Assembly: GCF_000230995.2 (NCBI RefSeq)
Contig: NC_019973.1
Coordinates: 5,346,001 to 5,410,000 of the forward strand
Origin: Mesorhizobium australicum WSM2073
GTDB taxonomy: Bacteria > Pseudomonadota > Alphaproteobacteria > Rhizobiales > Rhizobiaceae
Direction of reading: 5' to 3'
Length of the DNA: 64,000 bases
The notes under the pieces were generated by a model that was not told the DNA's origin, did no database searches, and saw only the letters and a program-made list of their open reading frames with translations. Numbering within the stretch: position 1 is the first letter of the stretch; each line of letters opens with the position of its first letter. Shown piece after piece: positions 36,222 through 52,686 of this stretch. Both the position numbers and the translations under genes were made by a program.

Positions 36222-36343
36222 GGTCATGTTTCATCGCTATCAGACGGCTTTGCGCAGCGGTGGCACGGCCTTGCCACCCCCCGCGAAGGGGTCGCAGCGC
36301 GACGGACCGGCTTGCGGCGAGACAGGGCCGCGCAAGCTTGAGC

Positions 36344-37366: not shown

Positions 37367-38088
37367 CAGGCCGCGACCTTCAGACCACGCAACCAGCCGA
37401 TGCGGCCGGCGAGATCCTTGTCGCCGAAAGCGAGCGAACCGAGCACCACGGTCTCGGCGCCGGCGGCGCGCAGCAGCGGCACGGTTTCGTGGCGGATGCC
37501 GCCATCGGCGGCGAGCACCACGGCCGACTCACGACCAGCGTTCCTCAGGATGGCGCGGGCTTCGCCCAGCCTGTCACAGGCCTTCTCCGACAGGCCCTGG
37601 CCCTTGACGCCGATCGCGGTTCCAAGAAGCGTGACGAACGCCACTTCGGAGACGAAAGGCTTCATCGCCTCTACAGGGGTCTCCAGCCTCAGCACGACGC
37701 CGGCCTCGGCGCCGAGTTCATGCGCCAGCCGCACCGCGCGCAGACCCGCCTCGCCGTTCTCGGCATGGACGCTGATCATGTCGGCGCCGGCCTCGATGAA
37801 CTGGCGCGTCTGTTCTTCGACGATTGCTTGGTCGACCATCAGATGGACGTGGATGGGCCTGGCCGTCAGTTTGGCGATACGGGCGACGAGATCGGGGAAG
37901 AACAGGAAGGACGGCGCGAAATGGCCGTCCGCGACGTCGATGTGGTGCATATCGGCATAGGGTTCGATGCGCTGCAAGTCGCTCTCGAAATTGGCGAGAT
38001 TGGCCGACCACGATGAGAATTCGGCGATCAGACGGTCGCGCGGCAGTGCGGCAATGGCGGCCGGGCCTGACAAAGGTTTCGAGATCAT
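37366..38088 (-). CDS. Ribulose-phosphate 3-epimerase family protein
   Basis: This 240-residue TIM-barrel epimerase keeps the metal and acid-base residues of Rpe/AlsE: MHHIDVADGHFAPSF (His, Asp), IHVHLMVD (His), MISVHAENG, and the second catalytic Asp in VLAADGGIRHETV. Family members epimerise ketose phosphates at C3, such as ribulose-5-phosphate or allulose-6-phosphate. It is longer than housekeeping Rpe at the N-terminus by about 20 residues and lies in a sugar operon with a ROK kinase. I therefore favour a pathway-specific epimerase (AlsE-like) over a second pentose-phosphate enzyme. Confidence 0.82.
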   Translation of the reverse strand: MISKPLSGPAAIAALPRDRLIAEFSSWSANLANFESDLQRIEPYADMHHIDVADGHFAPSFLFFPDLVARIAKLTARPIHVHLMVDQAIVEEQTRQFIEAGADMISVHAENGEAGLRAVRLAHELGAEAGVVLRLETPVEAMKPFVSEVAFVTLLGTAIGVKGQGLSEKACDRLGEARAILRNAGRESAVVLAADGGIRHETVPLLRAAGAETVVLGSLAFGDKDLAGRIGWLRGLKVAA

Positions 38089-38915
38089 GATTGGTCCTGG
38101 TTGTTGAAATTTCTATCGAGAAAGCCGCCGATGGCGGCGCGGATTTCGGTGAAATGGCGATCCTTGTCGAGGGCTTTCGGCGTCACCTCGGTGAGGGCGG
38201 CGCCGGGGATGGTCTCAGCCAGTTCGCGGGCGGTCGCCAGGGGATGGACGAGGTCTATGCCGCTGCCGACGACGAGCGTCGGGATTGCGAGGCCGGTCGC
38301 CATCGCCCGCGTCACGCCAGGCCCGTCATTGGCGATCGCCTGCATCACCTCGGCAAAAACGCTCGCGTTGTCACGCGCGAAGAAGCCGAGCAACGAGGCG
38401 AGATTGTCCGGCGCCTCGCTGCGAAAGCGGGCCGCCGTTGCCGAAGCCGCGAAGATGTCGCGCGCCTCTTCCAGCGGGTGGTCGCGGATGAGTTCCGCCA
38501 CTTCGACGTAAGGGCGCATGTTTTGCGGGGCCGCGTCGAAGGTCCAGGCCGGGCGCACCAGCACAAGAGCGGTGACGCGAGCCGGGTGGCGGGCCGCCAG
38601 GTGCAGTGCAATGGCGGCGCCCATCGAGATGCCACCGGCAACGAAGCGCTCAATGCCAGCTGCATCGGCAGCGGCGAGCACATCGTTGGCGAACATCCCG
38701 ATCGAAAACGGACGCTTGCCGCCGGCACCTGAGCCGCCCTGCGCGCGGCATTCCACAGTCAGCCGGCGGCGCGACGGACTGTCGGGAAAGTTCAGCGCCA
38801 CCTGCGCGGCATCGCCGCCGAGGCCATGCTGGAAGACGATGGGAAGCCCCTGCCCCGTGTCGAAGACGTGGAGCGCAGCGTCGTCGCGCAGCATGATCGT
38901 CGGCGCGGCACCCAT
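38085..38915 (-). CDS. Alpha/beta hydrolase
   Basis: This 276-residue alpha/beta-hydrolase-fold protein has the oxyanion region VFQHGLGGDAAQV, nucleophile elbow FVAGGISMGAAIAL (Gly-x-Ser-x-Gly), probable acid Asp in VVGSGIDLVHP, and a C-terminal His in KDRHFTEI. There is no signal peptide, so it is cytoplasmic. In this operon it could hydrolyse a sugar lactone or an acylated sugar produced by the oxidoreductase. That is inference. It overlaps both neighbours by one to four bases. Confidence 0.8.
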   Translation of the reverse strand: MGAAPTIMLRDDAALHVFDTGQGLPIVFQHGLGGDAAQVALNFPDSPSRRRLTVECRAQGGSGAGGKRPFSIGMFANDVLAAADAAGIERFVAGGISMGAAIALHLAARHPARVTALVLVRPAWTFDAAPQNMRPYVEVAELIRDHPLEEARDIFAASATAARFRSEAPDNLASLLGFFARDNASVFAEVMQAIANDGPGVTRAMATGLAIPTLVVGSGIDLVHPLATARELAETIPGAALTEVTPKALDKDRHFTEIRAAIGGFLDRNFNNQDQS

Positions 38916-39733
38916 CAGAGCAGCCCCCGCAGGATGGTTGCGACGCCAGGAGCCTCGTCGGCGGACAAGCCGTGGGTGACGAGCGCGCCATCGAAACCCA
39001 CCCCCTTCAGCCGCGCGACGAAATCCGGGAAGTCGACGACACCCTGGCCTGATGTGGCGAAGCGGCCGTCGGCAAAACGATCCTTGGCGTGCGCCATGGC
39101 GATGTGGCCAGCGGCCTCATCGATCGCGGCGGCGACGATGGCTCTCGCTTCATCGGGCTTTGCATGCTCGAACAGGTTGGCGGGGTCGAGCACGATCTTC
39201 AGATGCTTCGAACCCATCTCGGCGATCAGCCGGGTCGCATCCATGGCCGAGGTGACGATGTTGGCCTGCTCGGGCTCGATACCGAGATCGATGCCGGCCT
39301 CCTCGGCCAGCGCCAGTGCCTTCGCCATTTCGACGGCCATGTCGAACCAGGCCGACGGATCGGCATTGTCGGGATGGTATGCCCATTGGTCGGCTGCGTT
39401 GCGCGAGCCGGTGCAGAGCGTCACCAGTGGGATGTCGAGCTTGGCTGCAGTGTCGATGACCACCGCCAGGCGCCTCAGTCCGTCGTCGCGCGCAGCCTTG
39501 TCAGGATGCGCCATGTTGTAGGTGCCCGACAGCGCGGCCAGCGAAACGCCTGACGATCGCGCGGCGGCACCAGTGGCGGCGACGGCATTCGCCGGCACGG
39601 CATCCGGCATCGACGGCAGGCCGGCGCAGGCGAGATTGAACTGCGTCGTCTCGTAGCCGGCCTGCTTCACGGCAGCCAGCACGGTGGCCGGGTCGGTGCC
39701 CGCAAATGTCTTGGCGAAGATGCCGAGGCGCAT
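38915..39733 (-). CDS. TIM-barrel sugar isomerase/epimerase family protein with altered last ligand
   Basis: This 272-residue protein of the xylose isomerase-like TIM-barrel superfamily has candidate metal ligands Glu in LGIEPEQANIV, Asp in IVLDPANLFEH and His in IAMAHAKDRF. The last strand, where most members place a fourth ligand Glu, reads GALVTHGLSADEA, with His but no Glu. It may use a different metal geometry or only bind substrate. It lies between the hydrolase and Gfo/Idh genes with one-base overlaps (TGATG). The reaction is unknown. Confidence 0.78.
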   Translation of the reverse strand: MRLGIFAKTFAGTDPATVLAAVKQAGYETTQFNLACAGLPSMPDAVPANAVAATGAAARSSGVSLAALSGTYNMAHPDKAARDDGLRRLAVVIDTAAKLDIPLVTLCTGSRNAADQWAYHPDNADPSAWFDMAVEMAKALALAEEAGIDLGIEPEQANIVTSAMDATRLIAEMGSKHLKIVLDPANLFEHAKPDEARAIVAAAIDEAAGHIAMAHAKDRFADGRFATSGQGVVDFPDFVARLKGVGFDGALVTHGLSADEAPGVATILRGLL

Positions 39734-40809
39734 CAGGCCGCACCCGAAACCGAGGCAAGCTCGATCCGCTCGCCAGTCTCGACAGAGCGCGCAATTGCCA
39801 CCATGGCGCGGATCGACGCAATGCCGTCCCCGACATTGGCGCCGCGCATCGGCGCGCCGGTGAGCACGGTGTCGGCAAGGCCCTCGAGCTGGCGACGGAA
39901 GAAGTGGCCGTCGGCACCAAGCGGTTTTCGCGAGGTCGCGTCCTTCTCATGGAAGATGTCGACCTCGCTGGCGCGGAAATACCAAGGATTGAAGGTTTTG
40001 GCGATGACGGAACCGTTCTCGCCATAGAGCTGAAACCCTTCGTGCCAGTCCATGCGCACGGCGACGGTGAGGTCGAGATGGCCGAGCGCGCCGCTGGCGA
40101 ATTCGGTTTCGACGAACCAGCAATAGGCGCCGAAGCGCTCGTTGAGGCGGGCGCGCACGGCAACGATGTCGCCACAGAGGAAGCGGGCGGTGTCAACCAA
40201 ATGCGATCCGTGCGCCAGCATGAAATATCGCCTGAGATCAGCCTTGGGATTTCCGCCGGGCTTTTTTGCGAGCTTGCTGGTGACTGGCAGCGGCTGCACG
40301 GCGTCGGTGTTGGTGTAGCGGTGGGTGGAGTCGCAATACCAGGCCTTCAGTGCCAGCACCTCGCCCATCTCGTCGCGAACGAAGTCGCGGGCGGCCTCCA
40401 GCGCCGGATCGAAGCGCTTCATGTGGCCGACCTGCAGCACCTTGCCGGAGCGCTTGACCGCCTCTGCCAAGGCCTCGCCTTCCTCGACCGAGGTACCGAT
40501 CGGCTTTTCGCAGAGAACATGCTTGCCGGCATCGAGCGCCTTGATCGACATTGGCACGTGATAGGCATCCGACGTGGCGACGATGACTGCTTCGAGCTCG
40601 GGATCTGCGAGCATGGCGTCATAGTCGGCATACATCTTCTTTGGTTCATAGGTGGCGCCCATGCGGGCGAGCAAATCGGGTGCCGCATCGCAGATGGCGT
40701 AGAGGTCGGCATTGCCGGCCTTGACGCAGGATTCCAGATGCGCGAACTGGGCGATCGGGCCGCAGCCGAGCACACCGACCCTGAGGCGTCTGTCCTGTTT
40801 CTTGATCAT
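39733..40809 (-). CDS. Gfo/Idh/MocA family oxidoreductase
   Basis: This 358-residue NAD(P)-dependent oxidoreductase has the N-terminal Rossmann motif VGVLGCGPIAQFAHL, the family signature HVLCEKPIGTSVEEGEALAE (EKP is the conserved Lys-Pro), and a C-terminal beta-sheet domain with MLAHGSHLVDTARFLCG, where the catalytic His is expected. Members oxidise sugars, inositols or glycosides at a secondary hydroxyl. The chosen ATG 40809 is four bases after the upstream isomerase stop. Together with the two isomerases it suggests keto-sugar chemistry before phosphorylation by the ROK kinase. Confidence 0.86.
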   Translation of the reverse strand: MIKKQDRRLRVGVLGCGPIAQFAHLESCVKAGNADLYAICDAAPDLLARMGATYEPKKMYADYDAMLADPELEAVIVATSDAYHVPMSIKALDAGKHVLCEKPIGTSVEEGEALAEAVKRSGKVLQVGHMKRFDPALEAARDFVRDEMGEVLALKAWYCDSTHRYTNTDAVQPLPVTSKLAKKPGGNPKADLRRYFMLAHGSHLVDTARFLCGDIVAVRARLNERFGAYCWFVETEFASGALGHLDLTVAVRMDWHEGFQLYGENGSVIAKTFNPWYFRASEVDIFHEKDATSRKPLGADGHFFRRQLEGLADTVLTGAPMRGANVGDGIASIRAMVAIARSVETGERIELASVSGAA

Positions 40810-40813
40810 CGTC

Positions 40814-41635
40814 TCAGGCCCCGTAGCCGCGCATCGTCCGGCGGTTGGTCTTGACCGCGCCGGCCGGATCGGCGGCGGCGGTGTCGGATTCTTCTTCCAG
40901 CACCAGCCAGCCGTTGAAGTTCGGCGCGGTACCGGCGATCTCGATGACCTTAGGCGTGTCGCAGACGCCTTGGCCCAGCATCGCCCAGGTGCCGTCGGCA
41001 TCGACGTCCTTGAGGTGGATGTAGCGGATGCGGTCGCGGTAGGTGGTGAGCGTGTCGGCCATGTCCCTGTGGCCGCGCAGGATGTGACCGGTATCCGGCA
41101 CCCAGCCGACCAGATCGGGGTCGAGCAAGGCAAAAATCGCGTCGTAATCGGCGCGGTCGAACAGCAGCGTGTTGTGGTGCGAACTCGGATGCACCGCCAC
41201 CTGGACACCCGCCTTGCGGCCGAGTTCGCCGGCCTTGTTGTAAACCTCGGCCGCGACAGCGAATTTGTCGTGGCGTGGCCCGTCGGAGACGACGGTGGCC
41301 GAGCCCATCGACACGAGCGCATCGGGAAAGTTTGCCACGAAATCGATCCAGCGCCTGGCGGTTTCGAGATCGGTGCCGATCCCGTTCTTGAGCGTGAAGC
41401 CGCTCCTGGAGCCGAAGGCGAAGGAAATGAGCGCCAGACCGGACGACTTCAGCGCGGCGGCGAACTCGGTGGGTTTGCCGGCATAGTGGCCGATCATGGT
41501 GTCGGTGATCTCGATGCCGGCATAGCCACCATCGGCGATCGCCTTCAACAGATCGTCGGGGCCGCCGGTGAACCGGTCTCCCAGCATTTCCCAGGTGAAG
41601 GTCTGGCAGCCGACTTTGAGGTCTTTCACGTTCAT
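40814..41635 (-). CDS. Sugar phosphate isomerase/epimerase family protein
   Basis: This 273-residue TIM-barrel protein of the same superfamily has a complete-looking ligand set: HPSSHHN, WVPDTGHILRG (Asp, His), RYIHLKDVDADG (His) and WLVLEEESD (Glu). The start at ATG 41635 has an AAAGG site. The open frame runs upstream into a decayed permease fragment that ends in TGA at 41640-41642. It is now the first intact gene of the operon running to 36344. It may be transcribed by read-through from the DeoR cassette, since no promoter is obvious in the gap. Confidence 0.83.
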   Translation of the reverse strand: MNVKDLKVGCQTFTWEMLGDRFTGGPDDLLKAIADGGYAGIEITDTMIGHYAGKPTEFAAALKSSGLALISFAFGSRSGFTLKNGIGTDLETARRWIDFVANFPDALVSMGSATVVSDGPRHDKFAVAAEVYNKAGELGRKAGVQVAVHPSSHHNTLLFDRADYDAIFALLDPDLVGWVPDTGHILRGHRDMADTLTTYRDRIRYIHLKDVDADGTWAMLGQGVCDTPKVIEIAGTAPNFNGWLVLEEESDTAAADPAGAVKTNRRTMRGYGA

Positions 41636-41639
41636 CCTT

Positions 41640-41771
41640 TCATTCCTTGATCCCGCCCATTCCTTGATGCCGCCCTGCGTCAGCCCTTCGATGATGGAAG
41701 AACGGCACGAGTGCAATCAGCGGAACGGTGACGACGGCGGAGGCGCGGCGATATCGCCCGCCAGCAGACAG
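41640..41771 (-). pseudogene. Frameshifted C-terminal remnant of an ABC sugar permease (MalG type)
   Basis: On the minus strand 41741-41697 reads SAVVTVPLIALVPFF, and 41695-41660, one frame off, reads IIEGLTQGGIKE. Together they spell the C-terminus of a MalG-type permease (hydrophobic helix, FF, then IEGLTxGGIK). Upstream, LLAGDIAA-like coding appears in yet another frame. A 17-base segment encoding GGIKE is duplicated with one mismatch, and the second copy reads GGIKE-stop at 41640-41642, directly before the isomerase start. This is the debris of a permease gene that once preceded the isomerase, distinct from the intact permease at 41833. Confidence 0.65.
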
Positions 41772-41804
41772 GGTCCAATCATCCATTGCAACACACGGAC
41801 CCTG
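41769..41804 (-). terminator. Possible hairpin at the end of the transporter cassette
   Basis: CAGGGTCC at 41769-41776 pairs with GGACCCTG at 41797-41804 around a 20-base loop, 29 bases beyond the last cassette permease stop. The loop is long and no T run follows, so termination is uncertain. Confidence 0.35.
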
Positions 41805-41832
41805 CTCCGTCAGTCTCCTTGGGATGGACATC

Positions 41833-42675
41833 CTACTTGACCGAGCCCGCGGTCATGCCGGCGAGGAAGAACCTCTGGGCAACGAGGTAGATGAGCAAGA
41901 GCGGTAGCGAGCCGAGCACGCTCATCGCCATCATCTGGTTCCATTCGAAGGCGTGCTGCCCCATCAACAGCTGTATGCCGATCGGAACGGTGCGCATGGA
42001 GGTCGACTTCGTCAGTGTCAGCGCAAAGAGAAACTCGTTCCAGCATAACAGGAAGGTGTAGACCGACGTCGCCACGATACCAGGCAGTGAGATCGGCACG
42101 ATTACCCGCCAGAGCGCCGTCCAACTGGTGCCGCCGTCAACGGCAACGGCTTCATCGAGATCGCGTGGCAACGTGTTCAGGTACCCTGTCATCAGCAGGA
42201 TCGCATAGGGCAACGTAAACACCAGGTAGGTCAGGATCAGCGCGACATAGGTGTCGAAGATGCCGTACGAGACGACAAGCCCGAAGAAGGGGATCAGAAG
42301 CGTGATCGGAGGGATCGTCTGCGTGCTGATGATGAGTGTGTTCAGAATGCCCTTGCCGCGGAAGTTGAAGCGGCTGAACCCATAGGCCGCCAGCAAGGCG
42401 ATCAGCACCGTGAGCACGGTCACCGCCCCCGCGACGAAGTAGCTGTTGAAGAAGAAGCGCAGCTTTACCGGGTCGCCAAGGATGGCCGCATAGGCTTCCA
42501 GGGTGAAGGCCTTCGGCAGGATGGTCGGTGGCAGGGCAAAGATTTCGGTATTCGACTTGAACGAGCTGCTGAGCATCCAGTAAATCGGGAAGGCTGCGAA
42601 GAACAGCCCTGCCGCAAGAGCAACATGCAGCGCGACGGTGGTCAGTTTGTCCTTGCCGGAGTTCCGTTTCCTCAT
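41833..42675 (-). CDS. Sugar ABC transporter permease, MalG type (DeoR cassette)
   Basis: This 280-residue CUT1-type inner-membrane permease begins MRKRNSGKDKL, with hydrophobic segments from AAGLFFAAFPIYWMLSSSF onward. The EAA loop is PRDLDEAVAVDGGTSWTALW followed by RVIVPISLPGIVAT. The C-terminus is VAQRFFLAGMTAGSVK, a complete MalG-type end. Its start is six bases after the stop of the MalF-type partner. It is the last gene of the cassette operon. Confidence 0.9.
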   Translation of the reverse strand: MRKRNSGKDKLTTVALHVALAAGLFFAAFPIYWMLSSSFKSNTEIFALPPTILPKAFTLEAYAAILGDPVKLRFFFNSYFVAGAVTVLTVLIALLAAYGFSRFNFRGKGILNTLIISTQTIPPITLLIPFFGLVVSYGIFDTYVALILTYLVFTLPYAILLMTGYLNTLPRDLDEAVAVDGGTSWTALWRVIVPISLPGIVATSVYTFLLCWNEFLFALTLTKSTSMRTVPIGIQLLMGQHAFEWNQMMAMSVLGSLPLLLIYLVAQRFFLAGMTAGSVK

Positions 42676-42681
42676 GGCGTC

Positions 42682-43578
42682 CTACCTGGCCCGCTGATAG
42701 CGAATATAGAACAGCGTCAGGCCGAGAGAGATCAGCAGGATGACCACGGCGCTCGCCGATGCCTGAGACAGGTTGTAGCTCGAAAACGCCAGCTTGTAGG
42801 TGTAGGTGCTGAGGACCTCGGTCGCGTAGATCGGGCCGCCGCCCGTGGTGATCCAGATCAACGGGAAGACCTGCATGGTCCAGATGAAGTCGAGCAGCGA
42901 GATGCTGATGATGATCGGCATCAGCTGCGGGATGGTGATGAAGATCAGCTTCTGGTAGGCTTTCGCCCCGTCGATATCGGCAGCCTCGTAGAAGTCCTTG
43001 GGAATGCCTTGCAGGCCTGCGAGCAGGCTGACCATGAAAAGTGGGTAGCCCGCCCAGATATTGGCGAAAGTGACGGCATGCAGCGCGGTCTCGGGCGAGG
43101 AAAACCACTCGACCTTGGAACCGATGATGCCCATCTGCATGAGGATGCTGTTCACGACGCCGTTCGGCTCAAGCAGGAGGCGCCAGATCACGGCGATGAT
43201 CACCGCGGTGAACAGCCAAGGCAGTATGTAGAGCACGCGCAGTACATTGCGCAGCGTCGGATTGATGCGGTCGCTGTTCAGCATGAGCGCGAAGATCATG
43301 CCGATGGTCATGTGGAAAACCACACTCATGCATGTGAAATAGAGCGTATGCCACAGCGAAGCCCAGAACACCGGATCGTCAAAGATCGCCTGGTAGTGCT
43401 TTAGCCCGGCAAAGGATGGATCACGACGCAGGACCGCGCTGTTCTGAAAGGAATAGGCAATCACCGTAACCATCGGCAACAGCATCAGGAGCCCGACTAT
43501 GAGCAGCGAGGGCGACAGATAGAGATAAGGTGTCACGGCTCGCTTGAGCTTGTGATGGGAGCGCTTCTGCCGGGTCAT
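42682..43578 (-). CDS. Sugar ABC transporter permease, MalF type (DeoR cassette)
   Basis: This 298-residue CUT1-type permease has an N-terminal hydrophobic segment YLYLSPSLLIVGLLMLLPM and the EAA loop IPKDFYEAADIDGAKAYQKL with IFITIPQLMPII. Six membrane segments can be traced. It forms the channel with the MalG-type partner encoded next. Confidence 0.9.
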   Translation of the reverse strand: MTRQKRSHHKLKRAVTPYLYLSPSLLIVGLLMLLPMVTVIAYSFQNSAVLRRDPSFAGLKHYQAIFDDPVFWASLWHTLYFTCMSVVFHMTIGMIFALMLNSDRINPTLRNVLRVLYILPWLFTAVIIAVIWRLLLEPNGVVNSILMQMGIIGSKVEWFSSPETALHAVTFANIWAGYPLFMVSLLAGLQGIPKDFYEAADIDGAKAYQKLIFITIPQLMPIIISISLLDFIWTMQVFPLIWITTGGGPIYATEVLSTYTYKLAFSSYNLSQASASAVVILLISLGLTLFYIRYQRAR

Positions 43579-43634
43579 AGGGCCAACCTCGCGACAAGAG
43601 AAAAGAGCTTCAAACCATTCGGAGTGGTCATTTG

Positions 43635-43666
43635 CCGGCTGGCCCGCCTAATGGCAGGCCAACCGG
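43635..43666. repeat. Imperfect stem-loop after the cassette binding-protein gene
   Basis: CCGGCTGGCCCGCC (43635-43648) pairs with GGCAGGCCAACCGG (43653-43666) with three mismatches and a 4-base loop. It sits in the 118-base gap between binding-protein and permease genes, the same position as the hairpins in the erythritol transporter. Confidence 0.5.
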
Positions 43667-43696
43667 TAGATGGGCCGCAAGAGCGGAGCACGAGGG

Positions 43697-44944
43697 TCAG
43701 AATTTCGCTATCCAGCCCTTTTGCGCGGCAGCGGCTGCTTCTTCCGGCGTTTGCTCGCCGGCAAGCATCTTTTGAGCCTGCACGTCGAACTGGGTCATCA
43801 GGTCTTCAGCCACCGGCAGGCCCGTGAACTCGTTGGCGAGATAGCCGGTCTTGAAGATCTCGAAAGCCTTGCCGAAAGCCTTGTCGGAGGTCACGAAATC
43901 GGGCTTGGCGTTGACGTTGCCCGGGAAGGCGTTGGCAAGCGAGACGAGCTTGGCGTTCACCTTTTCGCTCATCAGATACTGGACGAGTTTCCAAGCCTCC
44001 TCCTGATGTTTCGAGGCAGCGGAGATGCCGATGCCCCAGGAGGCATAGGGAAGGCCGCGCTTGCCCGTATAGCCCTCCACAACCGGGACCGGGATGAGGT
44101 CGAAGTTCAGCTTGGGATTGCGCTTGCGGATGAGGTTCACATGCGCGAGCGAGTCGATCATCATCCCGACGCGGTCGTTGACGAATTCCTCGACTTTTTC
44201 CTGTTCGGTCTTGGTGGCGATGCCGGGCGAGATGGTGCCGGCGTCATTGAGCGATTTGACGAAGGAGAGCATATCCACCACCGGTTTGCCCTCGAGGGCG
44301 GGCTTGCCGTTCGCCATCATCGACTGACCCGAAGCCCAGACCCACGACATCATGTCGTTCTGGACACCGGAAGGCGTTTGCAGCGACAGAGGCAGCACCC
44401 AGCCATACTGGTTCTTGTCGGCGTGCGTCATCTTCTTGGCGGCTTCGAGAAATTCCGCGCGCGTCGACGGCAGCTTGGTCACGCCTGCCTGGGCGGCAAG
44501 GTCCAGATTGACGAAAACCGGATAAACGAACGAGGCGACCGGAAACATCACCGCCTTGCCGTCGACCTTGATGATATCGGCGACCTGGCTCTTGTCGAAC
44601 TTGCTCGCATCCATCATCGGGTTCATGTCGGCGAGTGCGTTCTGCGCGTTCAGATTGTTCACCCAGGCGCCGTCGAGGCCGACGACGTCGCTGAGCGTTC
44701 CGGTTGCAGCCCCAACCGAGATCTGGTCCCGCGTGGTCGCGTAGGGGCCGCTGACCAGCGTCACCTTGATTCCGGGGTTTGCGGCCTCGAAGCCATCCAT
44801 GATTGCCCTGAGCGAGCCGGCCGGCAGTTCGGGCTCCCACCATTGGGTGAATTCCAGCGTCGTGTCCGCCATGGCACCGGTTGCGCCAAGCAACCACGCG
44901 GCCGCGGCTATTTTCAGCATCGCGGATTTCATATGAAACGTCAT
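43697..44944 (-). CDS. Sugar ABC transporter solute-binding protein, family 1 (DeoR cassette)
   Basis: This 415-residue periplasmic binding protein starts at ATG 44944 with a GGAGGAGAAT ribosome site. The Sec signal peptide (MTFHMKSAMLKIAAAAWLLG, cleavage near AMA-D) precedes the mature start TTLEFTQWWEPELP. The family pattern IMDGFEAANPGIKVTLVSGP follows, and aromatic residues such as WVWASGQSMM may line the sugar site. The ligand is unknown; a mono- or oligosaccharide or polyol is expected from family 1. Confidence 0.88.
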   Translation of the reverse strand: MTFHMKSAMLKIAAAAWLLGATGAMADTTLEFTQWWEPELPAGSLRAIMDGFEAANPGIKVTLVSGPYATTRDQISVGAATGTLSDVVGLDGAWVNNLNAQNALADMNPMMDASKFDKSQVADIIKVDGKAVMFPVASFVYPVFVNLDLAAQAGVTKLPSTRAEFLEAAKKMTHADKNQYGWVLPLSLQTPSGVQNDMMSWVWASGQSMMANGKPALEGKPVVDMLSFVKSLNDAGTISPGIATKTEQEKVEEFVNDRVGMMIDSLAHVNLIRKRNPKLNFDLIPVPVVEGYTGKRGLPYASWGIGISAASKHQEEAWKLVQYLMSEKVNAKLVSLANAFPGNVNAKPDFVTSDKAFGKAFEIFKTGYLANEFTGLPVAEDLMTQFDVQAQKMLAGEQTPEEAAAAAQKGWIAKF

Positions 44945-45057
44945 ATTCTCCTCCTTCTCTTTTATGATCGACCGCACAATGCCGCCGATCGTCTGGTTAT
45001 TCAGAAGTCTTCTTACGCGGACGCCTCGCCCTCGCCCGCGGGCCTTGCCACGGATGT

Positions 45058-46203
<1,146 letters not shown>

Positions 46204-46292
46204 ATTCCTCCCTCCACAAGTCCAGCCCGCCGATTTTTATAGTTCTCCTTGGCTTATGTTCGCCTGCGAAATATTTGCTCGGACAGTTCAGG

Positions 46293-47243
46293 CTATGTAC
46301 CAGTATCGAGCGGCGCATATTTCAGTTCGACTGCCGACGGCGCGTTCGTCGATGCAAGGAATTCCGTGACCTGGCCGTCGGTCGGCAGCGCCTCGCGCCC
46401 GCCCCGCCCCGTTATCGAAAGGGCCGCCGCCGCGGCCGCGAACGCGACCCGGCGTGGGGTGTCGGCCCCGCGCGTCAATGCCAGGGCATAGGCGCCATGA
46501 AAGCAGTCACCGGCGCCGGTCGAATCGACAACGGCAACCCGATGGGGAGGCAGGTGCCAGAGCCCTTTCTCGTCGCGTCCGCGATAATAGACGCCCCTGC
46601 CGCCATCCGTCAGAACCACGGCGGACCGCGACGGCAACCACAATGCATCGAGTATCTCGGCGGGCGAGCGGCACCCTGTGGCGATCCGCGCAAAGCCGAG
46701 GGGAAGAATGAGGTGGTCGCAGAGCGCGATCAGCTTCTCGGTGGCTGGGCCTCTGCTCCATTCGATATCGCCGAGGATCGCAAGGCCGAGATCGCGAGCC
46801 CGAACCACGACATCCAGCGACCGGATCGCGTAACTATCGACGATCAGGACTGTCGCGCGGCTGAGGACCTCGTCCGGAAAGTCCGGCGCGGTGCCCAGCA
46901 TCGCTTCGTCGTCATAGGCGATGAACCGCTCCCCATCCGAGCCGACGGTGATCCGCGAGCGCACCGGGCGTGCGTGCGGGTGGCGCGGCGCGAATGCAGT
47001 TTCAACACCGCTCGCAACGAGATCGCACAGCACGGCGTCGTCCGCGGCACTGCCCAGCCATCCGACGAACCCGGCGGTGCCGCCGAGCCGCGCGACGGCG
47101 GCAAGGGCCGTCGCGACATTTCCGCCGAAAGCCCGGGCGCTTTGCAGAACCTTCCCCTTGCCCGCCGACAACGGCTGATCGACATAGACGATGTCGTCGA
47201 TCGCAATAGCTCCGAAGCCGAGGATTGAAGGGACGGCGGGCAT
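46293..47243 (-). CDS. PfkB family carbohydrate kinase (DeoR cassette)
   Basis: This 316-residue ribokinase-fold kinase has the N-terminal GG motif RAFGGNVATALAAVARLGG and the C-terminal signature with catalytic Asp VVDSTGAGDCFHGAYALAL. The lid strand region LGFGAIAIDDIVYVD is normal. It overall recalls YihV-type (sulfofructose kinase-like) members, but the residues I associate with sulfonate recognition could not be placed, so I do not assign that substrate. With the class I aldolase encoded three bases upstream it likely makes a ketose bisphosphate or 1-phosphate for cleavage. Confidence 0.83.
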   Translation of the reverse strand: MPAVPSILGFGAIAIDDIVYVDQPLSAGKGKVLQSARAFGGNVATALAAVARLGGTAGFVGWLGSAADDAVLCDLVASGVETAFAPRHPHARPVRSRITVGSDGERFIAYDDEAMLGTAPDFPDEVLSRATVLIVDSYAIRSLDVVVRARDLGLAILGDIEWSRGPATEKLIALCDHLILPLGFARIATGCRSPAEILDALWLPSRSAVVLTDGGRGVYYRGRDEKGLWHLPPHRVAVVDSTGAGDCFHGAYALALTRGADTPRRVAFAAAAAALSITGRGGREALPTDGQVTEFLASTNAPSAVELKYAPLDTGT

Positions 47244-47246
47244 CGT

Positions 47247-48080
47247 TCAGGCACCCGCCCTTGCCAGGGCGTCTTGCGCCGAAAGGCCGTCATGGATGAC
47301 GCCCCGAAAGGCTATCGCTGCTTTCTCCGGATCGCCATGCCCCCAGAGATTGCGGCCCACCACGGCACCGCGCGCACCGGCACGGATGGCGTCCGCCGTC
47401 TGCTGGAGGGCGCCGAGCAGCGTATCGGTCTTCGGGCCACCCGCGATCACAACCGGCACCGGGCATGTCCGAACGGTCTCTCGGAACGATTCGAAATCTC
47501 CCGTGTAACCGATCTTGATCACGTCGACGCCAGACTCGTAGCCGATGCGCGCCGCATAGGCGATCTCGTCGGGGGTGAAGACGATTTTTGCCCCGTCGGT
47601 GAAATCGCGAGGATAGATATGCGCGACCACCGGCATGCCGTAGCGGGCCGCTGCATTCACCGAATCGGTCAGCCAGCGTATGTATTTGCCCTCGGTCGCG
47701 CCGCGTACCGGAATGGCCACGGCCAAGGCATCGGCGCCGGCGCGCACGGCATCCTCGGGCGTTGCGATCAGCTCACAGATGCGATCGTCCGGGGTGAAGC
47801 AGCCGGCCTGGATCACCAGGCAGGCCTTGCCCGCGTATTGCGGCCATAGATGGCGCGCTGTGCCAGGCTGGATGCTGACGTAGTCGGGTTTGCCCACCAT
47901 GACGCGGGCGAGCGCACCGGGCAGATCGGCAAGACCGCCTTTGCGCACGTCGCCATAGCCGACAAAGTGGTCGACCGCGCCGCCAAAAAGATTGCCCGAT
48001 GGATGCGAGAAGAGGCGCGCAAGGCGCACCTGGGTTCCGAGGCTCATGAGTGCAAAATTCTCCAATCGATTGATTTCCAA
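47247..48080 (-). CDS. Class I aldolase, DeoC/LacD/LsrF-like family (DeoR cassette)
   Basis: This 277-residue TIM-barrel aldolase has the Schiff-base Lys in DVIKIGYTGDFESF, the aldolase phosphate-site region VVIAGGPKTD and a second phosphate motif GARGAVVGRNLWGH. The N-terminal ALARV and FGGAVDHFVGYGD match the DhnA/LsrF type. Such enzymes cleave phosphorylated ketoses into dihydroxyacetone phosphate and an aldehyde. It is the first gene of the operon, directly downstream of the DeoR operator region. The exact phosphosugar is unknown. Confidence 0.8.
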   Translation of the reverse strand: MEINRLENFALMSLGTQVRLARLFSHPSGNLFGGAVDHFVGYGDVRKGGLADLPGALARVMVGKPDYVSIQPGTARHLWPQYAGKACLVIQAGCFTPDDRICELIATPEDAVRAGADALAVAIPVRGATEGKYIRWLTDSVNAAARYGMPVVAHIYPRDFTDGAKIVFTPDEIAYAARIGYESGVDVIKIGYTGDFESFRETVRTCPVPVVIAGGPKTDTLLGALQQTADAIRAGARGAVVGRNLWGHGDPEKAAIAFRGVIHDGLSAQDALARAGA

Positions 48081-48095
48081 ATCCTGGATCCAGTG

Positions 48096-48140
48096 TTTTC
48101 GAAAGAAAGGATAAATGCAATCTTTCGAAATCTTTCGAAT
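48096..48140. promoter_or_regulatory. Repeated TTTCGAA operator for the DeoR regulator
   Basis: The gap between the divergent aldolase and regulator genes holds TTTTCGAAAG at 48096-48105, TCTTTCGAAA at 48121-48130 and TCTTTCGAAT at 48131-48140, with a further ATTTTCG at 48147. The last two full copies are exactly 10 bases apart, one helical turn, as expected for a cooperative DeoR-type repressor. Confidence 0.7.
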
Positions 48141-48203
48141 TCGCGTATTTTCGGTAGCGTGAGCCGAGGCCAGGGCTTGGCATATGGAGGCAAGGACAAG
48201 GCA

Positions 48204-48965
48204 ATGTTGTCAGAGCAGAGACGCCAATCGATCCTGTGTGAGGTGCAACGCAGCGGACAGGTTCGCATCAAGGACCTGTCAGACGATTTTGGCGTGTCGG
48301 AGGTCACGGTCCGCTCCGACCTCGAGATACTGGACCGCAAGGGACTGCTGACCAAGACCCGTGGAGGGGCGGTGACCCGGACCACGGATTCGACCACGGC
48401 CGCGTTCGCCCGCCGGATGCAAACCAACCTCGATGCGAAGAAACGCATCGCCCGGGCAGCGGTAGAGCTGTTCGAGGACAACCAGTCGGTCATCTTCGAC
48501 GGCGGCTCGACATTGATGCAGGTTGCCATGCAGCTACCGCCGCTCAACAATGTCGTGGTCGCGGCCACGGCGATGAATATCGTGCAGCATCTGATGCATC
48601 GGCCCGGGCTCGACGTTCACATGATCGGTGGCCGGGTCTATCCAGACACGGTGAGCACGCTGATTACCGATGCCGACACGGCTCTCGGCGGCTTGGTAGC
48701 GCATCAGGTCTTTGTCGGAGCGCATGCGATCGACTCGTCACTGGATGTGGTCGACGTGAACGAAGACATGGCGCGAACGAAGCGAATCCTCGTGCGCATG
48801 GCCCGGCGCGTTGTCCTCCTGGCGGATTCGAGCAAATGGGGCGTCAGCGGGACCTCCAAGGCCTTTTCGCTGTCGGGCGTCGATGTGGTGATCACCGACG
48901 ATGGCCTGCCCGGTCCAATACGCAGCCAGCTTGATAGGATCGGGGCCATGGTGATCTATGCCTGA
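48204..48965 (+). CDS. DeoR/GlpR family transcriptional regulator
   Basis: This 253-residue repressor has a DeoR-type helix-turn-helix (VRIKDLSDDFGVSEVTVRSD, residues about 20-39, then LEILDRKGLLTKTRGGAV) and a sugar-phosphate sensor domain with VIFDGGSTLMQVA, VVVAATAMNIVQHL and VLLADSSKWG. The chosen ATG 48204 gives the classic MLSEQRRQSIL start with GGAGG upstream. It is divergent from the seven-gene cassette operon and almost certainly controls it through the repeated TTTCGAA sites. Confidence 0.9.
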   Translation: MLSEQRRQSILCEVQRSGQVRIKDLSDDFGVSEVTVRSDLEILDRKGLLTKTRGGAVTRTTDSTTAAFARRMQTNLDAKKRIARAAVELFEDNQSVIFDGGSTLMQVAMQLPPLNNVVVAATAMNIVQHLMHRPGLDVHMIGGRVYPDTVSTLITDADTALGGLVAHQVFVGAHAIDSSLDVVDVNEDMARTKRILVRMARRVVLLADSSKWGVSGTSKAFSLSGVDVVITDDGLPGPIRSQLDRIGAMVIYA

Positions 48966-49059
48966 ACCCGTCGCGATTCCTGGCCGCCCTCGAAATATCC
49001 GAGGCCGAATGACCCGCGGGCTTCGGCGCCCGCGATCGGCCGGTTTTCATGTCCGTCAT
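48966..49059 (-). pseudogene. Possible truncated 5' end of a lost gene
   Basis: A strong ribosome site GGGAGGAGAA (49070-49061, minus strand) precedes ATG 49059 and MTDMKTGRSRAPKPAGHSAS. The frame then runs into the 3' end of the divergent-side deoR gene without recognisable homology. With the permease remnant at the other edge of the cassette, this looks like the start of the operon that the cassette interrupted. The product is not identifiable, and a chance site cannot be excluded. Confidence 0.35.
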
Positions 49060-49227
49060 TTTCTCCTCCCAGGGCCAGCAGCCTCCCGACACCGCACCAG
49101 CATTTCCGCATGTTCTATAAAAATTTTACGCGCGTCAATATTTAAAACGTTGTATAGCCATTTCGAGCCCGATCCGGCACCGTCGCGACGATCGGGCAGA
49201 CGTGATCGCATTGGGAGGTACGACAGA

Positions 49228-50376
49228 ATGCAGGCAAACTCACAAGCCAAACTCGGCATCGGTGTCATCGGATGCGGCAACATCTCGATGACGTACCTGC
49301 GCAATGCCGCGCTTTTCGGCGGCATCGAATTGCGCGCCTGCGCCGATATTTCAGCCGAGATGGCGGCGCTGCGAGCCAAGGAATACGGTATCCGGCCCCT
49401 TGACGTCGATGCGCTGCTGGCCGATCCCGAGATCGACCTCGTCCTCAACCTGACCATTCCGGCGGCGCATTTCGATATTTCATTCTCCGCCCTTTCGGCG
49501 GGAAAGCATGTCTTCACTGAAAAACCGCTCGCAACCTCGGCCGGCGACGGCCGCCGCCTGGTGGCGGAGGCGGCCAAACGCGGCCTGCTGCTCGGCTCGG
49601 CTCCGGACACTTTCCTTGGCGCAGCCGGACGCAAAGCGCGCCGCCTGATGGACGAGGGCGCCATCGGCCGCCCTGTCACCGGCACCGCCTTCATGATGGG
49701 GCGCGGCATGGAGCGCTGGCACCCCAACCCGCAATTCTATTATCAGCCGGGCGGCGGCCCGGTGTTCGACATGGGTCCCTATTATCTGACCATGCTGGTC
49801 AATCTGCTCGGCCCGGTCGCACGCGTCATGGCGATGGTGACACGCGGCCAAGAGGAACGCCTGATCACGGCCGAAGGGCCGTTCAAGAACACCAAGTTCA
49901 AGGTCGGCACGCCGACCAGTGTGCTGTCGCTGCTCGAATTCCGCTCCGGCGCGACCGTCACTTTCGGCGCGTCATGGGATGTCTTCAGGCATTCCAATCA
50001 TCCGATCGAACTGCACGGCACGGAAGGCTCGCTGCGGCTGCCCGACCCGGATACGTTCGGCGGCACGGTGTCGCTGTCGGAACGCGGCGCCGACTGGAAG
50101 GATTTCGCCAGCGAAGGCGAACTCTACGGCGCCTGCAACTGGCCTTACGCGGCGCCCGACCGCGCCAACTACCGCATGCTCGGCGTCGCCGACCTGGTGC
50201 GTTCGCTGCAGACAGGCGCGACGCCCCGCGCTTCCGGCAATCTGGCGCTGCATGTGCTGGAGATCATGGAAGCGATCCTGCATTCGGGCGAGACGAAAAG
50301 TCCGGTCGCCATAGCAGGTGACGTCGTCCAGCCGGCCCTGCTTGGCGAAGACGAGGCGCGCGGCCTGCTCGCCTAA
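49228..50376 (+). CDS. Gfo/Idh/MocA family oxidoreductase
   Basis: This 382-residue NAD(P)-dependent oxidoreductase has the Rossmann motif IGVIGCGNISMTYLRNAAL, family signature HVFTEKPLATSAGDGRRLV, and the C-terminal domain with GGGPVFDMGPYYLTMLVNLL, where Asp and Tyr/His serve catalysis in relatives. ATG 49228 follows a GGGAGG site. The 5' flank (49060-49227) is AT-rich with CGTCAATATT and AAAACGTTG elements. It is followed by an esterase gene and a convergent LacI regulator. Substrate unknown; likely a glycoside or cyclitol. Confidence 0.86.
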   Translation: MQANSQAKLGIGVIGCGNISMTYLRNAALFGGIELRACADISAEMAALRAKEYGIRPLDVDALLADPEIDLVLNLTIPAAHFDISFSALSAGKHVFTEKPLATSAGDGRRLVAEAAKRGLLLGSAPDTFLGAAGRKARRLMDEGAIGRPVTGTAFMMGRGMERWHPNPQFYYQPGGGPVFDMGPYYLTMLVNLLGPVARVMAMVTRGQEERLITAEGPFKNTKFKVGTPTSVLSLLEFRSGATVTFGASWDVFRHSNHPIELHGTEGSLRLPDPDTFGGTVSLSERGADWKDFASEGELYGACNWPYAAPDRANYRMLGVADLVRSLQTGATPRASGNLALHVLEIMEAILHSGETKSPVAIAGDVVQPALLGEDEARGLLA

Positions 50377-50446: not shown

Positions 50447-51406
50447 ATGACGATGACGCTCGACCCAGATGCGCTGCGTGCCCTGGAAATCGGCCGTGCC
50501 GCCGGCGGCGAACCCTTCGAGAATGACAGCGTCGCGGCGGCGCGGGCCACGTACAACGCTTCGTTCCCGACGCTGCAGGGCGAGCACGAGCCGGTCGCGG
50601 CAACCGAGCAGCAGCAGATCGACGGGCCGAACGGCCCGGTGACGATCCGCATCCATCGCGGTATCGGCGCGCCGCGGACGGGGGCGCGCGCCGTGCTCTA
50701 TCTGCATGGTGGCGGCTGGGTGATCGGCAATCTCTCCTCGCATGACGATATCTGCCGCTGGCTGGCCAATCTCGGCAACGCCGTCGTCGTCTGTCCCGAT
50801 TACCGGCTGGCGCCGGAGCACAAGTTTCCCGCCGGGCTCGAGGATTGCGCGGCAGCGCTGCGCTTCATGGCCGCTGGAGAACTCGGCATCGACCCTACCC
50901 GTATTGCCGTCGCTGGCGACAGTGCCGGCGGCAACCTTGCCGCCGTGCTGGCATTGCTCGCCCGCGACAGGCTGGCGCCGCCGCTCGCCGCCCAGATCCT
51001 GATCTATCCCAACACCGATGCCCGCCAGACGGCGGACAGCTACCGGCGTTTCGGCGAAGGCTTCGGACTCACCGCCGCCACCATGGCCTGGTTCCGCGAC
51101 CACTATGTGCGAACGCCCGATGATATCGCGGACTGGCGCGTATCGCCGCTGCTGGCCTCCAGCCTCGCCGGCGCACCGTCGGCCTTCGTCGTGATCGCCG
51201 GCCACGACATCCTTGCCGACGAAGGCACGGCCTATGCCGAGCGCCTGCGCGCCGACGGAGTGCCGCTGGCGTTGCGACACTGGCCGGGTCAGATCCACGG
51301 CTTCGTCTCGATGGGCCGCCACATCCTGGCCGCGCGGCAAACGGTAAGCGAGGCGGCGGCCTGGCTCCGCCTACAGACGCCGGAGCCGATCACTCAGGCC
51401 GACTGA
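50447..51406 (+). CDS. Alpha/beta hydrolase, hormone-sensitive lipase type esterase
   Basis: This 319-residue esterase has the HSL-family oxyanion motif LYLHGGGWVIGNL, the nucleophile elbow VAGDSAGGNLAAVLA (Gly-Asp-Ser-Ala-Gly), the catalytic Asp region VIAGHDILADEG and His in QIHGFVSMGR. The typical DYRLAPEHKFPAGLED segment is intact. There is no signal peptide. ATG 50447 and ATG 50453 are both possible; the GGAG site favours the second. It may remove acyl groups from a sugar or xenobiotic. The gene's 3' end overlaps that of the convergent lacI-type gene by 13 bases. Confidence 0.87.
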   Translation: MTMTLDPDALRALEIGRAAGGEPFENDSVAAARATYNASFPTLQGEHEPVAATEQQQIDGPNGPVTIRIHRGIGAPRTGARAVLYLHGGGWVIGNLSSHDDICRWLANLGNAVVVCPDYRLAPEHKFPAGLEDCAAALRFMAAGELGIDPTRIAVAGDSAGGNLAAVLALLARDRLAPPLAAQILIYPNTDARQTADSYRRFGEGFGLTAATMAWFRDHYVRTPDDIADWRVSPLLASSLAGAPSAFVVIAGHDILADEGTAYAERLRADGVPLALRHWPGQIHGFVSMGRHILAARQTVSEAAAWLRLQTPEPITQAD

Positions 51407-52428
51407 CGCATCACCAGGGTGGCGCCAAGCTTGACGTTGCGCGCCAGATCATGGCCGGACGGATCGGCCTCGTCCAGCAACGCCAGCAGGATCTCGACGC
51501 TGCGGCCGGCCATGGCGGCGAAGTCCTGTGCCATGGTGGTCAGCGCGGGACAGGTGTAGCGGCTCAACGGATGATCATCGTGGGCGGCGACGCGAAAATC
51601 GCAATCGGCGCGGCGGCCGATCTTCAGCCCGCGCGAAAAGGCGGCCGCCATCACACCGAAGGCGAGACGGTCATTGGCGCAGAGCAGCGTGCGGGCCGGC
51701 AGGCCGCCTTTCTCCAGCGTCCTGTCCATCCATTCGTGGCCGATGCGCTCGAAGTCCCAGCTATAGTCGCCCGCCGCCTTGAGAACGGTGGGCTCCAGGC
51801 CCGCGGCCTGCATCGCGTCGATATAGCTCTGCAGGCGTTCGCCCGAATTGTGGTTGACGTGCGGGATGTCGACATAGACAGGCGGTTCGCCGGACCGGCA
51901 GAGATAATCGACGATGGTCGAGGTGCTCTGGTGGTTGTCATTCCCGACGAATGGCGTGTCGCCTTCGATATAGGTGTCGAAATAGACGATCGGGATGTCC
52001 TCGCTCATCCGTTCGAAGACGCCGGGTTCGGAGACCAAGCCCAAGGGCGCGACGATAGCACCCGCGACCTTCAGCGACATCAGCGTCCTGACCGATTCCG
52101 CCTCCAGTTTCGGCGAACCGTGCGAGGAGATGACGATCGGCCAAAACCCTTCGTCGCGACAGCGCCGTTCGATGCGGCTGACCATCTCGGCGTAGAACGG
52201 ATCGGTGATCGCCGGTACGACGATGCCGACATTGCGGGTGCGCTTGCGGTTGAGGTTGCGGGCAAAAACATTCGGCTGATAGTCGGACGAACTAAGCGCC
52301 GCCTCGATGCGCGCCCGGGTCGCCGGCTTCACGCTGGCCGGATCGTCGAAATACTTCGACAGGGTCGGCCGCGAAACGCCGGACGCCCTGGCGAAATCAT
52401 CCATCGTCCGGTGGGTCTTTTCCGCCAT
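51394..52428 (-). CDS. LacI family transcriptional regulator
   Basis: This 344-residue repressor has a LacI helix-turn-helix and hinge (TMDDFARASGVSRPTLSKYF, residues 8-27, then YQPNVFARNLNRKRT) and a periplasmic-binding-protein-like core (VGIVVPAITDPFYAEM; LCANDRLAFGVMAAA). The HTH contains FDDP where many LacI members have LNG or LSG. It is divergent from the tagatose-type kinase gene and convergent with the esterase gene, so it may control both units. An inverted repeat at 52577-52596 is a candidate site. Confidence 0.88.
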   Translation of the reverse strand: MAEKTHRTMDDFARASGVSRPTLSKYFDDPASVKPATRARIEAALSSSDYQPNVFARNLNRKRTRNVGIVVPAITDPFYAEMVSRIERRCRDEGFWPIVISSHGSPKLEAESVRTLMSLKVAGAIVAPLGLVSEPGVFERMSEDIPIVYFDTYIEGDTPFVGNDNHQSTSTIVDYLCRSGEPPVYVDIPHVNHNSGERLQSYIDAMQAAGLEPTVLKAAGDYSWDFERIGHEWMDRTLEKGGLPARTLLCANDRLAFGVMAAAFSRGLKIGRRADCDFRVAAHDDHPLSRYTCPALTTMAQDFAAMAGRSVEILLALLDEADPSGHDLARNVKLGATLVMRQSA

Positions 52429-52576
52429 CTATATTTCAGGCCCCTTATCCTCGATGCCAGCCTTAACGCTCTGGCGAGAATCAGTCTTGCGATCGTCGCG
52501 GTGAGGCAGCATTGCTTGAGCCAACTTATTCAGTCAAATTTCCACGGTTTCCAGTACAACGCAGAAGCATTGCGCA

Positions 52577-52596
52577 CGTCAAATTATTTATTGACG
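52577..52596. promoter_or_regulatory. Inverted repeat upstream of the tagatose-type kinase gene
   Basis: CGTCAA-N8-TTGACG with an AT-rich centre lies in the 258-base gap between the divergent lacI-type and kinase genes. Its right arm could also serve as a -35 box. A related half CGTCAATATT occurs at about 49134-49143 before the Gfo/Idh gene. Confidence 0.4.
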
Positions 52597-52686
52597 CTCC
52601 GAAAACGACAACTTAGGTTTTGAACATGCACGGATAAAGGAATTTCTGGCCAAGCGGAGGCCGTCCGTCCGGCAGATGGTGAGGAC

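Follow-up and report, generated by a model that had tools for sequence, protein, structure and literature searches.

The stretch of DNA analyzed here, called the window below, comprises 64,000 nucleotides (nt) of Mesorhizobium australicum WSM2073 (NC_019973.1, positions 5,346,001–5,410,000) and is part of a complete chromosome of 6.2 Mb. On its minus strand lies a sugar operon of six catabolic genes, ISO–idh1–tim2–abh–rpe–rok, and upstream of ISO a cassette of seven genes, which encodes an importer, two enzymes, and a regulator. An earlier note on this DNA had proposed that such a cassette replaced the original transporter of the operon. Comparison with related genomes supports this: the importer genes of the operon were most probably replaced in place by the seven-gene module, parts of them remain as scars, and the operon would now be read through the cassette—a reading to which we assign a probability of about 0.88.

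The sugar operon, the cassette, and three scars

The operon and the divergent dehydrogenase gene beyond the cassette are as follows, with families assigned by Pfam.

40814 to 41635, minus strand: ISO, TIM-barrel isomerase/epimerase-like protein (IolE-like), first operon gene, found in 105/146 genomes of the genus
39733 to 40809, minus strand: idh1, Gfo/Idh/MocA dehydrogenase
38915 to 39733, minus strand: tim2, second TIM-barrel isomerase/epimerase-like protein (AP_endonuc_2)
38085 to 38915, minus strand: abh, alpha/beta hydrolase
37366 to 38088, minus strand: rpe, ribulose-phosphate 3-epimerase family
36344 to 37366, minus strand: rok, ROK-family sugar kinase (ROK), last of the six operon genes
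49228 to 50376, plus strand: IDH2, divergent Gfo/Idh/MocA dehydrogenase

The best solved relative of tim2 is a D-tagatose 3-epimerase (a weak match). Between ISO and IDH2 lies the cassette.

41790 to 48985, unstranded: cassette unit, with approximate ends, judged by eye where similarity to the cassettes of genomes G014 and G124—which stand at other positions—stops
41833 to 42675, minus strand: MalG-type permease (Pfam BPD_transp_1), 36% identical to the original permease of locus L054
42682 to 43578, minus strand: MalF-type permease (Pfam BPD_transp_1), 31% identical to the original of L054
43697 to 44977, minus strand: sugar-binding protein (Pfam SBP_bac_1), best solved relative SmoF
45058 to 46203, minus strand: UgpC/MalK-type ATPase (NCBIfam PRK11650 above cut-off; OB_MalK)
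46293 to 47243, minus strand: PfkB-family sugar kinase (Pfam)
47247 to 48047, minus strand: aldolase of the DeoC/LacD fold (Pfam), with an ATG start at 48047 (mechanical open reading frame from 48080)
48204 to 48965, plus strand: divergent DeoR-family regulator (Pfam HTH_DeoR, DeoRC)

All seven cassette genes are open in the window, in agreement with the complete unit of DeoR regulator, aldolase, kinase, and transporter that the earlier note had described. Binding protein, two permeases, and a UgpC/MalK-type ATPase make up a full importer set, which we take to be of the CUT1 type. The aldolase has MJ0400 and archaeal class I fructose-bisphosphate aldolase among its relatives, and the strains in which it is 93–98% identical are mostly of the genus Mesorhizobium.

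In other genomes of the genus, a different transporter of the same presumed type stands between ISO and IDH2. We label this allele B and the cassette at this place allele A. In the B locus used for comparison, L054 of genome G125, the order is IDH2, sbp′, malF′, malG′, ISO—that is, a binding-protein gene and two permease genes—with the importer ATPase gene ugpC′ after rok. Alignment to this locus reveals three scars in the window.

41640 to 41770, minus strand: scar 1, remnant of the 3′ end of the original permease gene malG′, decayed and carrying an 8-nt gap plus a tandem duplication of ~17 nt
49008 to 49059, minus strand: scar 2, beginning of the original binding-protein gene sbp′ (ATG and ~17 codons), with a ribosome site just upstream
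36327 to 36351, minus strand: scar 3, start of the original ATPase gene ugpC′ (first codons only), which overlaps the stop codon of rok and reads ACG instead of the ATG of L054

For scar 1, positions 41658–41770 (minus strand) align to the terminal ~110 nt of the permease gene in the B locus L054 with a score of 71.0, compared with at most 21.5 in 30 shuffles. Hence, the stretch before ISO that had been taken for a decayed permease C-terminus is indeed permease-like; its two apparent reading frames are due to the 8-nt gap, and its duplicated GGIKE end is the ~17-nt tandem duplication. At the other edge of the cassette, ~52 nt of the sbp′ coding part and the region upstream of it as far as the gene at 49228 align to L054, with the start of sbp′ being MTDMKKRPTADSKPVGH in L054 and MTDMKTGRSRAPKPAGH in the window. 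The stranded ribosome site and ATG at 49059, which had seemed to lead nowhere, are by this alignment the start of the B binding-protein gene. The third scar at the far end of the operon had been missed.

Two importers at one place

ISO was surveyed in 146 Mesorhizobium genomes (E-value ≤ 1e-60) and found in 105, and the surroundings of the 104 ISO loci other than that of the window were fetched, a few of them cut at contig ends. The interval between ISO and IDH2 holds the whole cassette in 51 of the 105 loci, the cassette without deoR in 19, allele B in 29, and neither in 6, whereby G081, whose deoR lies on a second contig, is counted as having deoR. For B, 28 loci were seen in place, each with an intact other transporter and no cassette, and the 29th genome, G132, has the B binding protein on another contig. 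Thus, the relatives do not all carry the cassette, and the intact alternative by which the earlier note had proposed to check its idea exists.

Across the whole gene content of each genome, the two alleles exclude each other: the cassette aldolase occurs in 74/146 genomes (E-value ≤ 1e-60), the B binding protein in 29/146 (E-value ≤ 1e-100), and both together in none. All cassette and B genomes fall within the 105 genomes with ISO, two of which (G109, locus L079, and G086, locus L132) have neither; at the locus of G086, IDH2 and an esterase gene are gone as well. The permeases and the binding protein of B were identified by Pfam, the B ATPase is ~50–60% identical to the cassette ATPase, and all three B genes are open in 28/28 loci. 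Order and orientation from ISO to rok are the same in A and B loci, except for four A genomes without idh1–tim2–abh in the operon.

In these four cassette genomes (G050, G034, G114, and G005; loci L072, L100, L110, and L124), an idh1 of 69–70% identity is found elsewhere in the genome, which is perhaps another displacement. Because of this second idh1, the loss of the three genes was not taken to mean that they become dispensable once the cassette is present.

The scars recur among the relatives. Of the 70 cassette loci in place, 51 have a malG′ scar that scores above its 30 shuffles, 10 do not, and 9 are too short for the comparison; the long malG′ scars look alike at the cassette junction when compared by eye. 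The ATPase gene ugpC′ follows rok in 26/26 assessable B loci (2/28 end too early). By translated search, it is recognizable in only 13 of the 70 in-place cassette loci, mostly as fragments, with 3/70 ending at rok and most fetched loci ending a few hundred bases beyond it. In G046 and G035, it is free of stops as far as the fetched sequence extends; in G144, it has a changed start and one stop, and in G076, a frameshift; short pieces are left in G018, G084, G133, G005, G053, G089, G143, G131, and G139. The stranded ATPase gene, as judged from these different remnants, appears to decay separately in several lineages.

Four further genomes carry the cassette elsewhere near the operon. In G014 and G124, it lies downstream of rok, with an aldolase of 96% identity; in G051 and G054, it is a divergent version with 66–81% identity for most genes and 54–55% for the kinase. 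All four are without B, yet keep B scars: the head of sbp′ scores 155.5 in G051 and 124.5 in G054 (maxima of 25 shuffles, 30.5 and 37.0), and the tail of malG′ scores 35.0 in G014 and 42.0 in G124 (shuffle maxima, 26.0 and 28.5). Hence, loss of B accompanies the cassette in more than one arrangement. The cassettes of A genomes share with those of G014 and G124 only ~43 nt past the last permease gene and ~20 nt past deoR, as seen by eye, and these short shared ends fix the extent of the unit.

Outside the genus, three Jiella genomes and one Martelella genome, reached via the aldolase (L287–L290), have IDH2 divergent from ISO–aldolase–kinase–ugpC–binding protein–permeases; no idh1 match at 1e-20 was found in these four genomes, by a search without a positive control of its own. 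In Rhizobium leguminosarum 248, ISO and idh1 are separated by deoR, aldolase, kinase, and ugpC, and in Sinorhizobium sp. B11, the same four genes are located beyond the LacI gene. Among 14 ISO loci outside the genus (L296–L309), cassette genes are present in 8 and B in 2 (L298 and L300), while the stretch contains neither in 4 and both in none. Of these loci, L296 and L297 were hand-picked from a plasmid search (101 records) and the other 12 are all non-genus matches in a 297-genome sample of the family; L311, a close relative of L297, was left out of the count. The recurrence of the cassette beside the same gene cluster in other genera means that it is best read as an alternative import-plus-kinase/aldolase module belonging to one pathway, and not as an unrelated unit; "foreign", as the earlier note had called its control, is misleading. 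The B transporter is found with the same operon in other genera, too (L298, genome G303; L300, genome G232), and is for this reason probably old.

In Sinorhizobium sp. B11, the spacer before ISO (L296, 8755–9000) terminates in sequence similar to the malG′ tail, with a score of 27.5 against a shuffled maximum of 25.5. L302 and L304 exceed their shuffles by similarly small margins; hence, a parallel replacement in this strain—possible, though unproven—was not used.

The order of events could also be reversed, with the cassette as the original and the B transporter as the newcomer. The greater frequency of cassette genes beside ISO outside the genus (8 against 2 of the 14 loci) would favor this. 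Within the genus, however, cassette loci contain remnants of B at three different places, and ugpC′ is present in every assessable B locus and missing or fragmentary in most cassette loci. Moreover, no cassette remnant was seen in the 28 B loci, though their spacers leave little room (7–30 nt on the permease side and, on the other side, 157–290 nt occupied by the promoter). The reverse order is thus very improbable. An older ancestor of the family may have carried the cassette, which is compatible with a change from B to A inside the genus.

It is likewise improbable, if somewhat less so, that the cassette serves another sugar and landed here by chance, with the loss of B being incidental. The cassette is self-contained with its own regulator and enzymes, and its transporter genes have a lower guanine-plus-cytosine (GC) content, 0.58–0.60 compared with 0.63–0.70 in the flanking genes. 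Against this stand the close association of cassette genes with the ISO cluster, inside it or next to it, in Rhizobium, Sinorhizobium, Jiella, and Martelella, the four genomes that have the cassette at other nearby positions and are likewise without B but with B scars, and the distribution in the genus: at the thresholds used, the cassette aldolase was not found in any of the 41 genomes without ISO. The GC comparison of cassette and flanks that the earlier note had called for gives no mark of recent foreign origin, and composition was dropped as evidence for it, since GC at third codon positions is not lowered (0.75–0.84 in the cassette and 0.78–0.85 in flanking genes).

Least probable of all is an insertion by a mobile element or an integron-like cassette system. 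In its favor, the cassette is a discrete unit whose ends are the same in A genomes as in G014 and G124. However, the window contains no tRNA gene, none of the seven scanned cassette proteins is a transposase or integrase, and the ends bear no terminal repeat beyond chance, the longest common run being 8 nt compared with an average of 8.3 in random pairs of stretches. Exchange through homologous recombination in the flanks would fit, although its tracts were not located.

How often the importer changed was assessed on a tree of rpoB (a single gene, FastTree, 90 genomes), in which 21/87 inner branches are weak. Among the 71 genomes with A or B, the allele must have changed at least 13 times, compared with a mean of 22.3 and a minimum of 17 in 200 shuffles. 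As the scars show A to be derived from B, any later switch means that alleles were exchanged or that replacement occurred again. Replacement is hence recurrent, and the window is one case of recurrent exchange at this locus. Median synonymous divergence (dS) between clades is 0.21–0.35 for the cassette and 0.62–1.31 for the flanks, with the B genes also being low at 0.40–0.46.

In the neighborhood, the proteins of rok, rpe, and abh (36344–38915) and the esterase, LacI, kinase, and GatZ proteins (50453–54920) occur in two types, ~55–80% identical between clades; idh1, ISO, IDH2, and both transporters are mostly >80% identical between clades. The two rok types require 2 changes on the rpoB tree.

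A few observations weigh against parts of the wider picture. The cassette tree mostly follows two species clades with only 3 clade changes, such that transfer between clades was rare. In close pairs that differ in allele (18, compared with 62 same-allele pairs), no clear rise in the synonymous divergence of adjacent genes was seen, and the exchange tracts were not located. The B genome G142 also has ACG at the start of ugpC′; hence, loss of this start is not restricted to cassette genomes. To these adds the inconspicuous third-position GC of the cassette, which lacks any sign of foreign origin. Nothing found contradicts the replacement itself. Comparison of the genomes shows that the importer was replaced and in which direction this went within the genus, that the B binding protein is absent from the genome, that the cassettes form a common unit, and that the remnants decayed.

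Control of the operon and loss of the imported regulator

Several further elements bear on how the operon might be controlled.

49085 to 49145, minus strand: native promoter block, with almost no variation among the cassette genomes of clade I, common to the divergent gene at 49228
49125 to 49138: near-palindrome TTTACGCGCGTCAA, within the native promoter block
48098 to 48139, unstranded: three CTTTCGAA sites, candidate DeoR operators, in the deoR–aldolase spacer
51394 to 52428, minus strand: LacI-family regulator, candidate native regulator (NCBIfam LacI-type matches below cut-offs)

The ancestral operon most probably had its own CUT1 importer, sbp′–malF′–malG′, at the front and the importer ATPase gene ugpC′ at the end. 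The module of deoR, aldolase, PfkB kinase, ugpC, binding protein, and two permeases then took the place of this importer with the importer genes in the same orientation, leaving the old promoter, the sbp′ start, and the malG′ tail as scars, and the partnerless ugpC′ was deleted apart from its first codons. From the layout, the operon would now be transcribed from a DeoR-controlled aldolase promoter through the importer genes. The cassette would import a substrate of the same pathway and add an exit by kinase and aldolase. In 19 relatives, deoR and the putative operators were lost later, which placed the old promoter directly ahead of the aldolase gene.

DeoR might repress through the CTTTCGAA sites, as their position and conservation suggest. 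The window has 4 such sites compared with 1.6 expected, a number reached in 6/100 shuffles; a site of this type occurs in 50/50 deoR–aldolase spacers and in 0/19 loci without deoR. The old promoter, which is the TTGACGCGCG promoter ahead of sbp′ in B loci, keeps its core TTGACGCGCGTAAA in 49/50 of the A loci read, the exact core being absent from G039. In the loci without deoR, the core is present in 19/19 with no gene between promoter and aldolase start, an arrangement from which the old promoter would drive the cassette.

That deoR was lost, and not absent from the start, follows from G003, which retains the sbp′ start together with the very end of deoR, and from the presence of deoR in the displaced cassettes. 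Junctions differ among the 19 deoR-less genomes, and presence of deoR in A genomes requires 6 changes on the rpoB tree and 5 on the cassette tree (65 rows). The earlier note had placed the operon under foreign control. Of this claim, the DeoR unit stands; control by it is what the layout suggests, and 19 of the 70 in-place loci lack deoR.

By layout and conservation, the LacI protein (51394–52428) may act at TTTACGCGCGTCAA, a near-palindrome whose single match is not above chance (mean 3.45 at ≤2 mismatches). Next to the LacI gene, the window encodes a tagatose kinase followed by a GatZ/KbaZ-type tagatose-bisphosphate aldolase subunit (52687–54920), both above NCBIfam cut-offs, and many fetched stretches have this pair next to the A allele as well as next to the B allele. 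Antisense control of deoR by scar 2 and the old promoter was considered and rejected: with a p-distance of 0.200, scar 2 is no better conserved than other spacers (0.088–0.192). Near-invariance is confined to the promoter block and would be accounted for by the divergent gene at 49228.

More broadly, the two importers might be mutually exclusive and interchangeable import modules swapped time and again at one spot by recombination, with the incoming repressor being shed through deletions that bring the module's genes right behind the resident promoter, and control returning to the resident regulator. We regard this generalization as tentative, with the odds somewhat against it.

A possible pathway and known precedents

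The gene content suggests import, oxidation by two Gfo/Idh/MocA proteins, TIM-barrel steps, phosphorylation by the ROK and PfkB kinases, and aldol cleavage. A 3-keto-sugar route of the general type used for levoglucosan is a doubtful assignment. Levoglucosan-type clusters (lgdA, lgdB1, lgdB2, lgdC) encode a route of oxidation, elimination, hydration, and reduction (PMC7676230). The passages concerned describe two dehydrogenases, of which one is LGDH and the other a Gfo/Idh/MocA reductase, together with two 'sugar phosphate isomerase/epimerase' proteins, a LacI regulator, and a sugar ATP-binding cassette (ABC) importer, all with counterparts here. This is a general family likeness only, and hydrolase, epimerase, kinases, and aldolase are extra in the present cluster. 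The lgd pathway proper was rejected, as IDH2 and idh1 score 71.8 and 73.9 bits against a dehydrogenase cut-off of 650. In the literature searched, no paper on the function of this cluster was recognized. A transposon-sequencing table lists pRL120027 as 'Putative aldolase', marked NE and taken as non-essential (PMC5118466, in the part concerned); this gene would be the aldolase of the Rhizobium johnstonii locus L311.

The kind of event is already known. Displacement of operon genes in situ, resulting in mosaic operons, was described by Omelchenko et al. 2003, as cited in PMC2783167. Here, too, resident genes are lost and functionally similar genes stand at the same place, with order and orientation of the remaining genes kept. 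As far as the account in PMC2783167 goes, operon genes are replaced by transferred counterparts without a change in operon order; in the present case, by contrast, the permeases are only 31–36% identical, the unit is larger than the part it replaces, and an ATPase gene decays at the far end. Also close to the present case, in the same bacterial order and genus, are the erythritol and polyol loci of Rhizobiales, homologous catabolic loci with nonorthologous ABC transporters (EryEFG and MptABCDE), for which Mesorhizobium ciceri is of the other type and recombination after horizontal transfer was proposed (PMC3599248). There, it is one exceptional Mesorhizobium among 19 genomes, and the passages concerned describe no scars; here, 105 genomes show three scar sites, stages of decay, a module with enzymes and regulator, and later loss of that regulator. 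Whole mal ABC transporter operons likewise spread horizontally between lineages (PMC2246101). In the part of that work concerned, they are gained as such, whereas here the swap occurs inside a catabolic operon and leaves scars. In the literature searched, no earlier account was found of so complete a record or of an imported regulator being lost repeatedly.

The locus provides an unusually complete record of an importer change: the ancestor, the swap, three kinds of scars, stages of ATPase decay, displaced modules, and later loss of the imported regulator that leaves the old promoter at the front. If the wider reading of interchangeable modules is true, import and exit steps would be exchangeable parts of one operon. 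The locus also offers natural pairs of strains in which to ask whether transferred genes come under resident regulation and whether the importer evolves together with the exit enzymes as one exchangeable module.

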